The translations under genes and the position numbers were made by a program. The notes under the pieces were generated by a model, which searched no databases, was not told the DNA's origin, and saw nothing but the letters and a program-made list of their open reading frames with translations. A DNA stretch of 64,000 nt from Spirochaetota bacterium (GTDB lineage Bacteria; Spirochaetota; Spirochaetia; Treponematales; UBA12059): positions 1-64,000 of the forward strand of contig JAPLSN010000031.1 in NCBI GenBank assembly GCA_026398615.1, written 5' to 3'. Numbering within the stretch: position 1 is the first letter of the stretch; every line of letters begins with the position of its first letter. Of this stretch, positions 30,806 to 37,857 are shown in pieces.

Positions 30806-31750
30806 ATGAAGAAGAACTTCGTTCCGATCCTCGTCTCCTATTTCGCCATCTACACGATCTGGGGATCCACCTACCTCGCGATCCGGTGGAGCGTCGAGAG
30901 CCTGCCGCCTTTCTATGTCGTCGGCATCAGGTTCTTCCTGAGCGGCCTCGTCTTCCTCCTCGTGTCCGTCGCGAGCGGGAAGCTGAAACGTTTTCCGTCC
31001 GTGAAGGAACTCCTTTCGGCGGCTTTTCTCGCGGTCTTTCTGCTGCTGTGCGGCAACGGCTTCGTGTCGGTCGGCGAGACGAGCGTCGACAGCTACATCG
31101 CCGCCATCATCATCTCCTCGACGCCCTTCTGCGTGGCCTTTTTCAACAGGGTCATCTTCAAGGAGAAACTTTCGGCCACCAGGCTTGCGGGCATGGCCCT
31201 CGGCCTCGCCGGCGTCGCCGCCCTCATGTACGACGGGCGCGCCGCGCGCTTTACCCTCAGCTATGGGATGCTGTTCATCGTCGTCGGATTCCTCTCCTGG
31301 GGCTTCGGGACTTCGATGAGCCGCGCGCTCGCCGTGCACCCGGACAACTTCGTCAACTCGGGTCTGGAGTGGACCATGGCCGGCGCCGCCGCCCTGGTCG
31401 TCTCGCAGTTCATCTACGCGCCCCTCCCCGAGGTCCTGCCGCCGGTGACGCCCCGTTCGTGGTGGGGGCTGCTCTACCTCACGACGGTCGGCGCCTCGGC
31501 GCTGGCGGCCTACAATTACCTGCTCAAGAACGAGCCTTCGAGCCGCATCGTGAGCTACGCGATCGTCAACCCGCTCATCGCGGTGCTCCTCGGCATCCTC
31601 CTCGCCGGGGAAAAGCCGGTGCCCCTCCTCGCCGTCGGCATGCCGGTCATCATCGCGGGCCTCGTCCTGATGCTCTATGGCGACGCGTTGGCTGCCGCAA
31701 TCTCGGCCAGGCTCGGGAAGGCCGACGGAAAAAGGCCATGGACTCCATAG
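30806..31750 (+). CDS. EamA/DMT-family transporter
   Basis: 314 residues with ten predicted membrane segments in two EamA repeats. The first begins FAIYTIWGSTYLAIRW, with GETSVDSYIAAIIISSTPF at its end. The second repeat ends NPLIAVLLGILLAGEKP. The family exports or imports amino acids, drugs or metabolites; close members are YedA-like. AGGAG precedes the ATG. The 3' end overlaps the isoaspartyl-peptidase start by 13 nt, so the transporter and hydrolase are co-expressed; a role in handling amino acids or small peptides is an inference from that. Confidence 0.88.
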   Translation: MKKNFVPILVSYFAIYTIWGSTYLAIRWSVESLPPFYVVGIRFFLSGLVFLLVSVASGKLKRFPSVKELLSAAFLAVFLLLCGNGFVSVGETSVDSYIAAIIISSTPFCVAFFNRVIFKEKLSATRLAGMALGLAGVAALMYDGRAARFTLSYGMLFIVVGFLSWGFGTSMSRALAVHPDNFVNSGLEWTMAGAAALVVSQFIYAPLPEVLPPVTPRSWWGLLYLTTVGASALAAYNYLLKNEPSSRIVSYAIVNPLIAVLLGILLAGEKPVPLLAVGMPVIIAGLVLMLYGDALAAAISARLGKADGKRPWTP

Positions 31751-32718
31751 CCATCCAGCAGGCCCGGAGCCCCGACGAACCCGTCGTGCTCGTGCACGGC
31801 GGCGCCTGGAATATCCCGGAGGATCTCCGGGCCGCGCACGTGGCGGGGACGGCCGTGGCCTATCGGGCCGCCCTCGACGCTCTCAGCCGATCGGACGAGC
31901 CGCTCGACGCCGTCGTGGCCGCCCTGGTCTCCATGGAGGACGATCCCACCTTCGACGCGGGTACGGGCAGCTTCCTCGACGAGGACGGACGCGTCTGCAT
32001 GGACGCGGCGATCATGCGGGGAAGCGACCTCGCGGCGGGCGCCGTGGCGGCCATCGGGCGGTTTCCCAATCCATCGCGCATCGCGCGCGCCGTGATGGAA
32101 TGCACGGAGCATGTGTTCCTCATAGGAGAGGGCGCGGAACGGTTCGCGATCCAGCGGGGTTTCAAGCCCGTGGATCCGCGGAGCCTGGTGCTCCCGCGTG
32201 AATTCGAAGGCTATGAAGCCTGGATCCGGGCGGGCAGGCCCGACGCGCGGACCTTCTTCGACGAGGAGGGCAGCGCCGCCGCCTCAGGTCGCGGCAGCCC
32301 GCAGGACAGGCGCGGCACGGTAGGCATCGTCCTCGCGGGTCGGCCCGGCCCGGACGGGAGGCGTCCCCTTTTCGCGGGCATCAGCACGGGCGGTACGCGG
32401 GGAAAGATGGCTGGGCGCGTCGGCGACGCCCCCCTGATCGGCTGCGGGCTCTACGCGGACGACGAGGGCGCCGCGGTCTGCTGCACAGGCTGGGGGGAGG
32501 CTTTCATCCGCAGCGCCGCGGCCAAGTCGGTGTCCGACTCGGTCGCACGCGGATCCCACCCCCAGGATGCCGTCGAATCGACCCTCATGGCCATCCTTCG
32601 CCGCACCGGAGGACGGGGCGGCATCATCGCGCTTGCGCCGGACGGCAGGACCGGAGCCGCCTTCACGACTCCCGACATGGCTTTCGCGGGGCAGACCTGC
32701 GTAAAGCTGGAAGTATGA
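31738..32718 (+). CDS. Isoaspartyl peptidase / type 2 L-asparaginase (Ntn hydrolase)
   Basis: 326 residues, the expected length. It starts with VVLVHGGAWNIP and carries the autocleavage site RRGTVGIVLAG, where the threonine becomes the N-terminal nucleophile. The substrate-binding block STGG, then GKMAGRVGDAPLIGCGLYAD, follows. The proenzyme splits into alpha and beta subunits and hydrolyses isoaspartyl dipeptides or asparagine. The usual Gly-rich stretch before the beta chain is short here. It starts inside the transporter gene (ATG 31738, GGAAAAAGG upstream). The cytoplasm is the expected location because no signal peptide is present. Confidence 0.9.
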   Translation: MDSIAIQQARSPDEPVVLVHGGAWNIPEDLRAAHVAGTAVAYRAALDALSRSDEPLDAVVAALVSMEDDPTFDAGTGSFLDEDGRVCMDAAIMRGSDLAAGAVAAIGRFPNPSRIARAVMECTEHVFLIGEGAERFAIQRGFKPVDPRSLVLPREFEGYEAWIRAGRPDARTFFDEEGSAAASGRGSPQDRRGTVGIVLAGRPGPDGRRPLFAGISTGGTRGKMAGRVGDAPLIGCGLYADDEGAAVCCTGWGEAFIRSAAAKSVSDSVARGSHPQDAVESTLMAILRRTGGRGGIIALAPDGRTGAAFTTPDMAFAGQTCVKLEV

Positions 32719-32828: not shown

Positions 32829-32858
32829 TTGGACGGGTACTTCTAGCTTCTCTATACT
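32829..32858 (+). promoter_or_regulatory. Probable promoter of the ATP-grasp operon
   Basis: -35 TTGGAC (32829-32834), 18-bp spacer, -10 TATACT (32853-32858), about 45 bp ahead of the GTG start. Further upstream, ATGAAT / ATTCAT (32758-32778) form a small inverted repeat. Confidence 0.5.
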
Positions 32859-32910: not shown

Positions 32911-33912
32911 GTGCCACAATCATCGCCCGGTTCCCGTCCGTCCATGAGACTCCTGTTGCTGTATGCCCGGAGTGCCGATCCGGGACGCCGGGCTGCGGAC
33001 GAGGCGCGATTCACCCTCTTCCGCGATGCGCTCGCGGCCGGGGGCATCGAAGCCGTCCCCGCGGGATTTTCGAGCGAGCGGGAATTCCTTTCCCTCATCC
33101 GGGAAACCCGTCCCGATCTCATATTCTGCGCCGCGCACCGCGTGCCGATCCGGGGCGGGCCGCCGCGCGGCGCGCACGACATCATCGAGGAACTCCGCAT
33201 ACCCTTCGTCGGTTCTTCCGCGCGGGCCATCGAACTTGCTCTCGACAAGGACGCCCTCAAGCGCGCATGGCTCGCAGGAGGGGTACGGACGCCCGCGTGG
33301 TTTTCGTTCGGGAACGAAACGGGACCAGCTGACGATCCGCGTGGGGCGCTCGACGGGGCCCTGGATTTCCCCTACATCGTCAAACCGGCGCTCGAAGGCA
33401 ACAGCCGCGGCATTTCCCGGGATTCGGTGGTCCGTTCCTCCGGCGAACTTCGCGCCAAGGCGGACTCCGTGGTCCGGGAGTATGGCCCCGTGATCGTCGA
33501 GCGCTTCCTCGAAGGCCCGGATCGACGGGAATTCACAGTCGCGATGATCGGCAACGGGGATCGCTCGCTCGTCATGCCGGCGGAACTCACTTTCAGGGAG
33601 CCGACCCTGTTCCCCGTGATCACCACGGACGACAAGGACGGACAGCGCACCCTCGCGGTCCCGGTGGAGGATCCTGCCTTGTCGGCCAAGGTATCGGCCT
33701 TCGCCCGCTCCGCCTTCGCGATCGCCGGGGTGCGGGATTACGCTCGCGGCGATTTCATCCTTTCCGGCGGCGAGCTGTACGCGATCGAAGTCAACGGCCA
33801 GCCGATGGTACCGGACAGCTGGTTCGCCGCCTGTTCCCGGGGAGCCGGACTCGGCGAGGAAGCCTATCTCAATGCGATCGTCCTCGCGGCCGCCGAGAGG
33901 GTCGCGGGATGA
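32911..33912 (+). CDS. ATP-grasp ligase (D-Ala-D-Ala ligase-like)
   Basis: 333 residues from a GTG start with a strong AGGAGG site 8 nt upstream; ATG 32944 is the alternative. Motifs of the D-alanine ligase-type ATP-grasp fold are present: DLIFCAAHRVP in the N-domain, FVGSSARAIELALDKDALKRA, FPYIVKPALEGNSRGI (ATP lysine and loop), IVERFLEGPDRREFTVAMIG and a final YAIEVNGQPMVP, where Glu and Asn would bind metal. The family joins a carboxylate to an amine using ATP. Its overlap with a B12-mutase-like gene (ATGA) and with an opine-dehydrogenase-like gene downstream argues against cell-wall synthesis and for a dedicated amino-acid-derived product. Confidence 0.8.
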   Translation: MPQSSPGSRPSMRLLLLYARSADPGRRAADEARFTLFRDALAAGGIEAVPAGFSSEREFLSLIRETRPDLIFCAAHRVPIRGGPPRGAHDIIEELRIPFVGSSARAIELALDKDALKRAWLAGGVRTPAWFSFGNETGPADDPRGALDGALDFPYIVKPALEGNSRGISRDSVVRSSGELRAKADSVVREYGPVIVERFLEGPDRREFTVAMIGNGDRSLVMPAELTFREPTLFPVITTDDKDGQRTLAVPVEDPALSAKVSAFARSAFAIAGVRDYARGDFILSGGELYAIEVNGQPMVPDSWFAACSRGAGLGEEAYLNAIVLAAAERVAG

Positions 33913-35816
33913 CGCGGACCGCCGTCCGCGACTTCGGTCCCGATGACCGCGTCGGGCTCATCGGACCCTCGCTCGATGCCCACACGCTCGGCATCGGATC
34001 GGTCGCGCGCCTGCTCGCCGACTGCGGCGTGCGCGTCGTCGAGGCCGGAACCGAAGAACGGGACGCGGCCTCCGCTCCCTGGGCTCCCGGGAACGGCCGC
34101 GCCCTTGCCGCCTGGATCAGGGCGAACAGGATCACCGTCCTCGGCTTCAGCTACCGCCTCGATCCCGCGGACGGCGTTCGCCTTTTCGGCGCCTTCCTGG
34201 ACGCGCTCCGTGGCTCGCTTTCGCTCGCCGCCGACGGCGGCACGGTCCGCGCCCTGCTTTTCGCGGGCCTTCCCGAAACCTGTGCCCTCGTCGCCGAGCG
34301 CTTCCCGCTGGTGTCAGGCATCTTTTCGGGGGAGGAGACTCCCGCGGAGACCCTCGCGGCTTTCGGCATTCCATCCGCCGCGGTGAGCGCCGACGCCGCG
34401 GCCGGCGTCGCCTACGACGAGGCGCGCATGTCTTTCGGCCGGGACCTCGTCGCGCGCGGCGACTGGCTCGGCGTCCGTTCCGTCGACCGGAGCGGCGCCC
34501 CGCGCTTCGGCCTCCGCGGCGACGGCATCGTCGGACGCATCGTCCACGGCCGCTCGCTCGCCCTGCCTCCGCTGATCCGGGCGCACGTCGGGCCCTACCT
34601 CCCCGACCGGCGCGAAGCGGTGCGCCTCTTCCTGTCCTGGACCCGGCAGCTCGCCCGCGGCGGGCTGCTCGACGTGCTCTCGATCGGTATCTCGCAACTC
34701 AGCCAGTCCGCCTTCGGCGAAGACCACGAGGGCATGCTCGACGGCGGCGGCGTGCCGATCAACTCACCCGGGGAGTATTCCGATGTATGGAGCGCGGCGC
34801 GTCCCATGCTCGTCCGGACCTACGCGGGGACGAAGGACGTCGGGCGCCTCGCGCGGATGTACGAGGAGAGGATCGACATCGCCTGGCACGCTTTCTCCTT
34901 CTGGTGGTTCTGCGAAACCGACGGGCGCGGCCCGAACGGGGTTCTCGAAAACCTTGGCGAGCACCTCGGGGCGCTGCGCTTCGTCGCGGCCTCGGGCAAA
35001 CCCTTCGAGCCCAACGTCCCCCACCACTTCGCCTTCAGGGGGGCGGACGACGCCACCTACGTCGTCTCTGGCTTCCTCGCGGCGAAGGCCGCGAAGCTGG
35101 CCGGAGTCCGCTTTCTCGTGCTCCAGGTCATGCTGAACACGCCGCGATCGACCTGGGGCGTCCAGGACCTCGCGAAAGCCCGCGCCCTCCTTTCGCTGGC
35201 GCGGGAACTCGAAGACGGCGGTTTCCGGGTCTTCCTGCAGCCGAGGGGCGGGCTCGACTACTTCTCCGCGGACGAGGCCAAGGCGAAGGCCCAGCTCGCG
35301 GCGGTGACGGCGCTCATGGACGACATCGAGCCGGAAAACGGCGCCAGCCCGGACATCATCCACGTGGTGAGCCATTCCGAGGGGCGAGGCCTCGCGGATC
35401 CTCCGGTGATCGAGGAAAGCGTTCGCATAACGCGCCACGCGCTGGTCCAGTGGCGGAAGGTGCGCGCCTCGGGGTATGCGGTCGACCTGGCCCGCGATGC
35501 CGAAGTCGAGGCGAGGACTTCCGCCCTCCTGTCCGAGGCGCGCACGCTCGTCGCGGCCTTCGAGTCGTCCGTCCCCGATCCATATTCGGCACGGGGACTC
35601 TACGACGCTCTGGCTTTCGGTTTTCTCGCCGCGCCCTGGCTGCTCGGCTGCCGCGGGGAATTCCCCGCGGCGACGGCGTGGCGCACGGGGCTTTCGGGAG
35701 GCGCGGTCCGCGTGGTCGACGCGGAGGGCCGCCCGGTGCCCGCATCCGAGCGGGCTGCGGTCTGCGCGGAACGGGCGAGAGCGGCAGTCGCGGCGCGCGC
35801 CGCGGGGAGGGGTTGA
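33909..35816 (+). CDS. B12-dependent mutase-like protein, fused cobalamin and TIM-barrel domains
   Basis: 635 residues. The N-terminal 140 form a cobalamin-binding Rossmann domain with the base-off DxHxxG motif (LDAHTLG; Asp23, His25, Gly28). The remainder resembles the catalytic barrel of adenosylcobalamin carbon-skeleton or amino mutases, most like the glutamate-mutase E subunit (GGLLDVLSIGISQLSQSAFG, INSPGEYSDVWSAARPMLVR, WHAFSFWWF, PHHFAFRGADDATYVVSG). Glutamate mutase normally has the B12 domain as a separate small subunit; here it is fused at the N-terminus. Overlaps 4 nt with the ATP-grasp gene and is followed directly by the dehydrogenase. The substrate is unknown; an amino acid is the natural guess. 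Confidence 0.65.
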   Translation: MTRTAVRDFGPDDRVGLIGPSLDAHTLGIGSVARLLADCGVRVVEAGTEERDAASAPWAPGNGRALAAWIRANRITVLGFSYRLDPADGVRLFGAFLDALRGSLSLAADGGTVRALLFAGLPETCALVAERFPLVSGIFSGEETPAETLAAFGIPSAAVSADAAAGVAYDEARMSFGRDLVARGDWLGVRSVDRSGAPRFGLRGDGIVGRIVHGRSLALPPLIRAHVGPYLPDRREAVRLFLSWTRQLARGGLLDVLSIGISQLSQSAFGEDHEGMLDGGGVPINSPGEYSDVWSAARPMLVRTYAGTKDVGRLARMYEERIDIAWHAFSFWWFCETDGRGPNGVLENLGEHLGALRFVAASGKPFEPNVPHHFAFRGADDATYVVSGFLAAKAAKLAGVRFLVLQVMLNTPRSTWGVQDLAKARALLSLARELEDGGFRVFLQPRGGLDYFSADEAKAKAQLAAVTALMDDIEPENGASPDIIHVVSHSEGRGLADPPVIEESVRITRHALVQWRKVRASGYAVDLARDAEVEARTSALLSEARTLVAAFESSVPDPYSARGLYDALAFGFLAAPWLLGCRGEFPAATAWRTGLSGGAVRVVDAEGRPVPASERAAVCAERARAAVAARAAGRG

Positions 35817-35817
35817 C

Positions 35818-36966
35818 ATGGGACGGATGGACGACGAGGGCCTGTCGAGGATACTCGCTGCCGCGCGCGCCAAGGGCCCCGCGCTTCGCTGGACCGTCAT
35901 CGGGGCCGGCAACGGAGGCCTTGCCATGGCCGGTCACCTCGGGCTCATGGGCTTCCCGGTCCAGCTCTACAACCGCAGCGACGAGCGGCTCGCGGGCGTC
36001 CGCTGGCACGGGGGAGTGCGGGTCGACGGCGAGGCTCGCGGCTTCGGCCCGGTGGAACTCGCCACGTCCGACATGACAGAGGCCCTGTTGGGCGCCGACG
36101 TGGTCATGGTGGCGACTCCATCGACGGCGCATCGGAGCCTCGCGGCGCTCATGGCGCCCTGCCTTGCCGACGGGCAGCTCGTCGTGCTCAATCCCGGGCG
36201 CACGGGCGGGGCCCTCGAATTCCGCAAGGTCCTCATCGACGCGGGGGCACCGGGGCGTCCCCTCCTCGCCGAGGCGCAGACCTTCATCTACGCGTCGCGG
36301 GCCACGTCGCGTTTCGAAGCCCACATCTTCAAGATCAAGAACGGCCTCGCCCTAGCGGCATTGCCTTCCTGGAGGACGCCCGAAGCCCTGGGAATACTCG
36401 AGGCCGCCTTCCCCCAGTTCAAGGCGGGCGGCACGGTGCTCGCGACGAGCATGGAAAACATCGGCGCCGTCTTCCACCCGGCACTCACCCTGCTCAACGC
36501 GGGATGGATCGAGTCGACCGGCGGCGACTTCGAGTACTACCTCGGGGGCATCACGCCCTCGATCGCGCGGGTCCTCGAACGGATCGACGAGGAACGCCTC
36601 GCGGTGGCGAGGGCGCTCGGGGTGCGGAGCCTGTCCGCGCGCGAATGGCTCTACCTGAGCTACGATTCGTCGGGACGCGACCTGCATGAGGCCATCCTCA
36701 ACACCGACGCGTACCGCGGCATCAAGGCGCCGCCTGCGATCGACCACCGCTACGTCACGGAGGACGTGCCCATGAGCCTCGTGCCGATCTCCTCGCTCGG
36801 GACGATGCTCGGCGCCCCGACCCCGACGATCGACATGGTCATAGAACTCGCGCACCTCCTGCTCGGTACGGATTTCCGGGCGTCGGGCCGCACCGTCGAG
36901 AGCCTCGGTCTCGCGGGGCTCTCGGTGCAGGACATCCACCGCATCGCGACGGAGACGGGTCTCTGA
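35818..36966 (+). CDS. Octopine/nopaline (opine) dehydrogenase-family protein
   Basis: 382 residues. The N-terminal Rossmann domain has WTVIGAGNGGLAMAGHLG, and the C-terminal helical domain has GGDFEYYLGGITPSIARVLE and LGAPTPTIDMVIELAHLLLG, typical of the NAD(P)-dependent opine dehydrogenase family. These enzymes reductively join an amino acid and a 2-oxoacid, or run the reverse. The conserved His-Asp pair is plausible at IDHRYVTEDVP. GGGGAGG sits just upstream, 1 nt after the previous stop. With a ligase and a B12 enzyme in the same operon, an opine-like metabolite or metallophore is possible, but biosynthesis cannot be separated from catabolism here. Confidence 0.8.
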   Translation: MGRMDDEGLSRILAAARAKGPALRWTVIGAGNGGLAMAGHLGLMGFPVQLYNRSDERLAGVRWHGGVRVDGEARGFGPVELATSDMTEALLGADVVMVATPSTAHRSLAALMAPCLADGQLVVLNPGRTGGALEFRKVLIDAGAPGRPLLAEAQTFIYASRATSRFEAHIFKIKNGLALAALPSWRTPEALGILEAAFPQFKAGGTVLATSMENIGAVFHPALTLLNAGWIESTGGDFEYYLGGITPSIARVLERIDEERLAVARALGVRSLSAREWLYLSYDSSGRDLHEAILNTDAYRGIKAPPAIDHRYVTEDVPMSLVPISSLGTMLGAPTPTIDMVIELAHLLLGTDFRASGRTVESLGLAGLSVQDIHRIATETGL

Positions 36967-36988: not shown

Positions 36989-37675
36989 ATGAAGGAAATT
37001 ATCGATACTGTAGCCGCCGCATGGGCTTCGCTGCCCTCGATGGTCGTGGCGCTGCTCACGCTCCCCGCGGGGTGGCTGTTCGCGCTGCTCTCCCGCTTCC
37101 TCGTCGCGGGATTCCTCTCGCTGCTCGGCGTCGACCGGATAGCGAAGAGGACCGGAGCCGCGGAATTCCTCCGCAAGGGGGGCGTGGAGTACTCGCTGTC
37201 CAGGCTGGTCGGCGTCCTGGCCTACTGGGCCGTACTCGTCGCGGTGCTCGTCCGCCTCGCGATAATTCTCGATGTCCGCCTCGTCGCCTCGCTCTACGAG
37301 CGCGTGGTCGAACTCTTCCCGAGCCTGCTCGCGGCCGTGCTCGTCGTGGCGATCGGCGCGGTCATCGTCGGGTTCCTCGCGAATTTCGCGATGACGATAG
37401 CGCGCAACGCGGCTTCCCGCCATCCCCAGGCGATCGGGCGGGCGATCAAGTGGGCGGGAAATGCCCTCGTCATACTCATCGCGCTGGACCAGGTCGGCCT
37501 CGGACGGTCGATACTGAGCACCGCTCTCCTCGTTCTGCTGGCCGCGGCTTCCTTCGGCGCCGCGCTCGCCTTCGGCCTCGGCTGCAGCACCATGGCCAAG
37601 GAGGCGGCGACGCGCTTCCTCAGGGAACTGCGGGAACGCGACCGCGGAGGCAAGGGCAGCGACCTCGAGGGGTGA
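36989..37675 (+). CDS. Small membrane protein, MscS-like TM-helix type
   Basis: 228 residues with about five hydrophobic segments. The last segment (TALLVLLAAASFGAALAFGLG) ends in the glycine/alanine-rich pattern seen in the TM-helix repeat of conserved mechanosensitive-channel-like proteins. No large cytoplasmic beta domain is present, so it is shorter than MscS. It follows the dehydrogenase by 22 bp with AAGGAG and is probably in the same operon. It may be a small channel or an accessory membrane protein; transport of the operon product is speculative. Confidence 0.65.
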   Translation: MKEIIDTVAAAWASLPSMVVALLTLPAGWLFALLSRFLVAGFLSLLGVDRIAKRTGAAEFLRKGGVEYSLSRLVGVLAYWAVLVAVLVRLAIILDVRLVASLYERVVELFPSLLAAVLVVAIGAVIVGFLANFAMTIARNAASRHPQAIGRAIKWAGNALVILIALDQVGLGRSILSTALLVLLAAASFGAALAFGLGCSTMAKEAATRFLRELRERDRGGKGSDLEG

Positions 37676-37828: not shown

Positions 37829-37857
37829 TGGACTGCCCGCGCATCCTTGACTATACT
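37829..37857 (+). promoter_or_regulatory. Promoter of the PfkB kinase gene
   Basis: -35 TGGACT (37829-37834), 17-bp spacer, -10 TATACT (37852-37857), then 7 nt to the ATG. No Shine-Dalgarno is present, so a leaderless mRNA is predicted. Confidence 0.6.

Follow-up and report, generated by a model that had tools for sequence, protein, structure and literature searches.

A recurrent bacterial operon pairing a putative adenosylcobalamin mutase with an opine dehydrogenase

What would a bacterium make with an amide ligase, a cobalamin-dependent enzyme and an opine dehydrogenase encoded side by side? This question is raised by a locus in a 64,000-nucleotide stretch of DNA from a Spirochaetota bacterium (hereafter the window), in which an initial annotation had noticed three overlapping or abutting genes at 32911-36966 and had proposed a B12-dependent pathway giving or degrading an opine- or peptide-like metabolite. 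All three genes were found on the + strand at these coordinates: the start of the putative mutase gene (MUT) overlaps the stop of the ATP-grasp gene by 4 bp (ATGA), and the ATG of the opine dehydrogenase gene (ODH) lies one base past the MUT stop. A fourth gene, which had been missed, encodes a small membrane protein and completes an operon of four genes arranged head to tail on the + strand. The features are as follows.

32830-32858, + strand: promoter-like sequence preceding the operon, TGGACG-17-TATACT (9 of 12 positions agree in a consensus scan; a consensus match only)
32911-33912, + strand: Ddl-like ATP-grasp carboxylate-amine ligase, 333 aa, GTG start
33909-35816, + strand: MUT, putative adenosylcobalamin mutase, 635 aa (AlphaFold model, fold matches, homologues, invariant residues)
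33909-34403, + strand: N-terminal B12-binding domain of MUT, residues 1-165 (model of the domain alone; D23-x-H25-x-x-G28, S81-Y-R-L, FAGLP at 118-122)
34500-35762, + strand: glutamate-mutase-fold barrel and C-terminal extension of MUT, residues 198-618 (1cb7_B match, GlmE profile alignment)
35818-36966, + strand: ODH, opine dehydrogenase, of the L-aspartate-preferring type by signature, starting at ATG 35818 (PF02317, 1bg6, signature residues)
36989-37675, + strand: membrane protein with mechanosensitive-channel-type TM helices, 228 aa (PF05552, hydropathy, adjacency)

Judged by their homologues, the ATP-grasp, MUT and ODH genes are real genes and not chance frames, since MUT homologues with 45-61% identity over nearly the full length occur in several taxa and ODH is nearly always adjacent. 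The likelier start of the ATP-grasp gene is an in-frame ATG, at 32944, which agrees better with the relatives than the GTG at 32911. The consensus scan revealed no promoter-like sites inside the operon; a second such site was found at 37829-37857 (TGGACT-17-TATACT), with hexamers nearly identical to those at 32830. Searches against Rfam detected no riboswitch or other RNA in the window. Directly 5' of the operon and on the same strand, 30806-32718 encodes an EamA-family exporter followed by an isoaspartyl peptidase/asparaginase; both were rejected as members of the pathway because they were not seen next to MUT at other loci.

To what kind of enzyme does MUT belong? No significant match was found for it in Pfam and NCBIfam (PF02310 appeared only below threshold, E=0.09), and neither a sequence nor a profile search of the PDB, nor a search of plasmids, gave any match. 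Predicted structures were more informative. The whole-chain AlphaFold model, built on 13 homologues, had a pLDDT of 82.5. The N-terminal domain modelled alone reached 88.5 and matched best the B12 subunit of 2-hydroxyisobutyryl-CoA mutase (4r3u_D; Z 13.2, rmsd 2.3, 124 residues aligned), followed mostly by other B12 domains, so that the cobalamin domain recognized earlier from its DxHxxG motif is borne out by the fold. The same holds for the glutamate-mutase-like barrel that had been described as fused to it: residues 198-618 of the model aligned with glutamate mutase 1cb7_B over 375 residues (Z 28.7, rmsd 3.3), which was also the best PDB match by Foldseek (E 6e-13). The next matches were lysine 5,6-aminomutase (Z 26.1), ornithine 4,5-aminomutase (24.1) and methylmalonyl-CoA mutase (18.7). 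The highest-ranking matches were thus adenosylcobalamin (AdoCbl) mutases, with Z from 28.7 to 18, and unrelated barrels came next at about 17.

Homologues of MUT formed three clades in the tree, namely MUT-A of the window's lineage, MUT-A of Bacteroidota and Bradymonadales, and a sister family, MUT-B. All complete homologues were single chains with an N-terminal B12 domain. The DxHxxG motif was invariant in MUT-A, its His and Gly were present in all 38 homologues, SYRL was invariant, and the third B12 motif was GG in MUT-B and GL in MUT-A. MUT therefore carries both the B12 Rossmann domain (DxHxxG and SxL motifs, with GG in MUT-B) and, in the model, the mutase-type TIM barrel that characterize the AdoCbl-dependent mutase superfamily. 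The N-terminal domain of MUT-B passed PF02310 (38 bits against a cut-off of 32.1), and its profile matched lysine aminomutase beta (P 8e-7) and a MutS-like subunit (P 3e-7). Comparison of the MUT-A and MUT-B profiles gave P 1e-11, and a joint barrel profile gave a colinear GlmE alignment of 411 columns (P=6e-4; lysine aminomutase alpha, 0.09). On the basis of these models and profiles, MUT appears to be the founding member of an unnamed family of putative AdoCbl mutases. A function in which the corrinoid serves methyl transfer, elimination or sensing is very improbable: the N-terminal domain of MUT-B does weakly match methyltransferase corrinoid proteins (NF047996, 29.8 bits, cut-off 370), but the best barrel matches are AdoCbl mutases well above other barrels, the GlmE-specific C-terminal extension aligns too, and no conserved partner methyltransferase lies beside MUT.

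If MUT is a mutase, its active site may indicate the substrate. Glutamate mutase (GlmE/MutE and GlmS/MutS of Clostridium cochlearium; 1cb7, 6h9e) shares with MUT the barrel including the C-terminal extension and a B12 Rossmann domain with an axial His, and its R149 and E330 correspond to the invariant R303 and E491 of MUT, although the alignment is weak (P=6e-4). In glutamate mutase, R66, R149 and E171 hold the glycyl part of the substrate, and R100 and Y177 the acrylate part (PMC10947579). Of the arginine claw (R66, R100 and R149) and E171, only R149 was kept. In an alignment that is weak at single positions, R66 maps to H226 of MUT, with R224 nearby, and R100 to a conserved Ser/Gln stretch with Q266 and no invariant Arg; by the same alignment, the E171 equivalent is lost, the position not being acidic, and that of K326 is Val. 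Residues invariant or nearly so among the 38 homologues of the three clades were H25 (the axial His, invariant), S81, R83, R224, H226, Q263, Q266, R303, Y305, R340, E367, N369, H372, R377, Q406, N410, R446, H485 and E491, many of them in or at the ends of barrel strands as positioned in the model. These residues would fit a substrate with several carboxylates rather than free glutamate. Because R66, R100 and E171 are not conserved, glutamate is a doubtful substrate for MUT, and an opine may be the substrate instead. The initial expectation of an AdoCbl pocket in the barrel is upheld in part: the axial His and the Glu330 equivalent are invariant, whereas Lys326 is not kept.

MUT also differs from glutamate mutase in being one chain with the B12 domain at its N-terminus, in place of separate sigma and epsilon subunits, and in lying in an operon with an opine dehydrogenase; PF06368, the glutamate mutase family, had no match in MUT or elsewhere in its own genome. 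Lysine 5,6- and ornithine 4,5-aminomutases have a related barrel and a B12 domain (barrel Z 24-26), but their profile match is weaker. The PLP lysine of these aminomutases, which in 1xrs follows the axial His of the B12 domain by 11 residues, was absent: Leu36 occupies this place in the MUT of the window, and no conserved Lys was found there in MUT-A or MUT-B. Identification of MUT as a glutamate mutase or a lysine/ornithine aminomutase was therefore rejected on residues and scores. A separate gene for lysine 5,6-aminomutase alpha is present in the window's genome.

The partner enzyme gives a more direct indication of the substrate. ODH belongs to the opine dehydrogenase family, as initially annotated (PF02317, E=2e-48; 1bg6, E=8.6e-77), and has the Octopine_DH domain, GxGxxG, the His-Asp dyad (His220-Asp316) and the active-site Trp. 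Among 29 MUT-linked ODHs, the catalytic dyad and the Gly motif were found in all and W277 was invariant. Metagenomic opine dehydrogenases (mODHs) with Arg at position 111 and Gly at 198 (ArODH numbering) prefer L-aspartate with pyruvate, and swapping this pair swaps the preference (PMC10787698). The corresponding residues are R128 (29/29) and G216 (28/29) in MUT-linked ODHs, and both are present in the ODH of the window together with R53, the Arg tied to NADPH use. Arthrobacter opine dehydrogenase (1bg6) and the L-Asp-preferring mODHs (PMC10787698) share with ODH full-length homology, the dyad, the Arg/Gly pair and the NADPH-type Arg; these enzymes were characterized alone, without a B12 partner. 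The signature, whose specificity has been demonstrated on homologues, points to an L-aspartate-type enzyme in the window, which refines the initial reading. Neighbouring genes point the same way, as an Asp/Glu racemase and a sodium:dicarboxylate symporter lie near MUT at three loci (L029, L033 and L035), a symporter at a fourth (L073), and asparagine-synthase homologues at others. An ODH with the same Arg/Gly signature also occurs without MUT (L079:4538-5719), beside what appear by eye to be TRAP-type transporter genes; this ODH subtype therefore does not need MUT.

These results bear on the order of the two reactions. The main rival to the order that we prefer, in which ODH acts before MUT, is that MUT acts first and, like glutamate mutase, converts a free amino acid to a branched acidic one (for instance 3-methylaspartate), on which ODH and the ligase then act. 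The nearest fold is that of glutamate mutase, whose product is an aspartate analogue, the R149 and E330 equivalents are kept in MUT, and both the ODH signature and the asparagine-synthase-like ligases suggest aspartate-like substrates. We nevertheless consider this order rather doubtful, as the R66, R100 and E171 equivalents are not conserved, the same ODH subtype is found without MUT, and the published mODHs use plain L-Asp (PMC10787698). We place MUT after ODH because MUT lacks an equivalent of E171, the glutamate mutase residue that binds the free amine, and because this ODH subtype exists without MUT.

Is the grouping of the genes itself conserved? It proved to be so almost everywhere for MUT and ODH, whereas an amide ligase is present in most loci and its family changes. 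ODH adjoins MUT in 36 of 39 copies across the three clades. Within the window's lineage, ODH and the small membrane protein lie beside MUT at all 13 loci and the Ddl-like ATP-grasp gene at 9, with one further genome carrying this ATP-grasp gene in trans. At the Bacteroidota MUT-A loci, ODH is directly upstream of MUT in 12/12 and preceded in 10/12 by an ATP-grasp of another subfamily; a DegT aminotransferase is usual there, and flippases, sugar-phosphate transferases and glycosyltransferases also occur. At the MUT-B loci, ODH and an asparagine-synthase homologue are each adjacent in 11/12, with most misses at contig ends. The ligase has thus been swapped between unrelated families, and MUT and ODH stay together. 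Among 59 relatives of the window's genome, a close ODH (at least 61% identity) was found in 12/12 genomes with MUT and in 1/47 without it, where it is a fragment at a contig edge and the genome is 67% complete (Fisher p 1.2e-11, which is optimistic because the genomes are related), and ODH and MUT distances were correlated (0.89 within the lineage, 0.57 overall). A PduO-type adenosyltransferase was identified in 23 of 24 host genomes; since 29 of the 47 relatives lacking MUT have it too (p 0.012), AdoCbl supply was downgraded after this control to a condition that holds in the hosts rather than strong support.

MUT itself was rare in the wider samples. A pattern-based scan of 84,980 species, which requires exact peptide matches and hence undercounts MUT, gave 13 loci, mostly in Bacteroidales MAGs, and also in Polaribacter marinus, a Bradymonadales MAG and a Spirochaetales fragment. 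Of the 59 relatives, 12 carried MUT (the window's genome included; the other copies showed 54-61% identity), as did 5 of 296 sampled genomes of the window's phylum, 5 of 395 in a Bacteroidota sample (3 of them MUT-B) and 1 of 241 from the phylum of the Bradymonadales MAG; MUT-B was found in 10 of 164 genomes of one order. A Spirochaetales contig (L014:3479-4111) has a short ORF without ODH that covers MUT C-terminal residues 463-608 at 52% identity and is perhaps a decayed copy, and one relative, genome G030, carries two copies of MUT, one of them partial, and two of ODH (L028 on contig C84, and contig C126). No ODH was seen within the 13 kb examined around the Bradymonadales MUT-A (L012:7980-12819), whose neighbours encode an Acetyltransf_6 protein, a methyltransferase and a DUF4910/DUF2172 protein. 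Downstream of MUT on one Bacteroidales contig (L002:4464-5330) are genes for a beta-keto acid cleavage enzyme (PF05853) and a PglD-like acetyltransferase.

With regard to the ligases, the ATP-grasp of the window is D-Ala ligase-like, as first described (PF07478, 62.9 bits, cut-off 24), and scores below the curated D-Ala-D-Ala ligase cut-off (TIGR01205, 86.5 against 245.65 bits). A role as the housekeeping Ddl was rejected, a canonical Ddl (331 bits) being encoded elsewhere in the genome. Two MUT-B-linked ligases pass the asparagine synthase B equivalog score. Most Bacteroidota AsnB homologues have Ala or Ser in place of Cys2. The glutaminase domain is degenerate in those that were scanned, and T322-T323 are changed, as is R387 where readable. 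Glutaminase-dead AsnB homologues at most MUT-B loci recall beta-lactam/carbapenam synthetase of the same family; however, the MUT-B ligases resemble asparagine synthetase B more closely (E 1e-43 to 7e-48, with beta-lactam synthetase at E 8e-18 to 2e-13), and the window's operon has no AsnB homologue.

The 228-aa membrane protein matches PF05552 just above the cut-off (23.0 against 22 bits) and NF033912 below it, and adjoins MUT at one MUT-B locus in addition to the 13 loci of the lineage. No MscS beta-domain was found after its TM helices, so that it differs from an MscS channel. Its presence in 13/13 lineage loci suggests another fate for the product, which fits either enzymatic order: the cassette might make a compatible solute, a neutralized amidated opine that leaves through the channel-like protein upon osmotic downshift. 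One ODH-MUT-B-AsnB cassette is followed downstream by an MscS channel, trehalose phosphatase, DUF5752 and a TreT-type glycosyltransferase (L072:12153-18324). In addition, the amide of the compatible solute NAGGN is the work of another AsnB relative; TIGR03104 matches the ligases here only far below its cut-off. Most copies, however, have no adjacent osmotic genes and the Bacteroidota MUT-A copies sit in polysaccharide loci, which makes this fate unlikely. The initial annotation had left open whether the metabolite is made or degraded. Breakdown of an opine taken up from outside, served by the ligase and the mutase, would be possible in principle given the reversibility of opine dehydrogenases, and dicarboxylate symporters or a citrate-type transporter lie near a few copies. 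But no catabolic genes recur beside the cassette, and the ATP-consuming ligase and the polysaccharide-assembly context fit synthesis better, which leaves only a slim chance for degradation.

Taken together, the first interpretation is partly supported, and we tentatively favour, at somewhat less than even likelihood, the reading that the product of the operon is a small amidated opine, built from an acidic amino acid by ODH, then MUT, then the ligase. Starting from the computed B12-domain and mutase folds, the ODH dyad with its aspartate-type signature and the conserved linkage, we infer the substrates, the order of the ODH and MUT steps, which group migrates and what becomes of the product, as follows. 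ODH would join an aspartate-type L-amino acid to an alpha-keto acid, most likely pyruvate, using NADPH, to give for example N-(1-carboxyethyl)-aspartate. MUT would then generate a 5'-deoxyadenosyl radical from cobalamin held His-on by the N-terminal domain; the radical would take a hydrogen from the opine in the barrel, and one group would move by one carbon, in the simplest case converting the 1-carboxyethyl arm to a 2-carboxyethyl arm. The ligase (the ATP-grasp here, the asparagine-synthase homologue in the sister system) would activate a carboxylate with ATP and couple it to an amine. The product would be used outside the cytosol, perhaps after release through the channel-like protein in the window's lineage. 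In Bacteroidota, since the copies sit in polysaccharide loci, it would probably acylate an amino sugar in a surface polysaccharide. A chemical precedent, as cited in PMC10609480 (ref. 48), is alanopine on 4-amino-4,6-dideoxyglucose in the Providencia alcalifaciens O35 polysaccharide; that opine is amide-linked to an amino sugar but contains another amino acid, and is described without a B12-dependent step.

Several points weigh against the proposed pathway. The alignment behind the residue mapping to GlmE is weak (P=6e-4), 4 of the 13 lineage loci lack an adjacent ligase gene, L012 has no nearby ODH, and a PLP-independent 1,2-shift at nitrogen would be chemically unusual. A bolder version of the pathway is quite improbable, in which MUT would be the first opine-rearranging AdoCbl mutase, converting N-(1-carboxyethyl)-aspartate to its N-(2-carboxyethyl) isomer without PLP, and, at loci whose ligase is a glutaminase-dead AsnB homologue, that ligase would close the product into a lactam as beta-lactam synthetase does. 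Beta-lactam synthetase uses an N-(2-carboxyethyl) amino acid. In the open-access literature, no paper was found for the combinations of ligase, MUT and ODH tried (subscription journals lay outside the scope), in agreement with the initial remark that no described pathway with this trio was known.

The pairing of MUT with an aspartate-type ODH and an amide ligase, in an operon that recurs in different forms in separate bacterial groups, suggests a small-molecule pathway that has yet to be described. AdoCbl rearrangements of only a few kinds are known, and neither MUT nor MUT-B is named in the protein-family libraries searched. The hypothesis is directly testable, as the ODH partner predicts an acidic amino acid and an isolate with the cassette inside a polysaccharide locus exists. 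If it is true, the MUT family, whose pairing with ODH reaches gut Bacteroidales, the lineage of the window and a cultured marine Polaribacter, would extend B12 chemistry by a new reaction and bring with it a novel metabolite or polysaccharide decoration.
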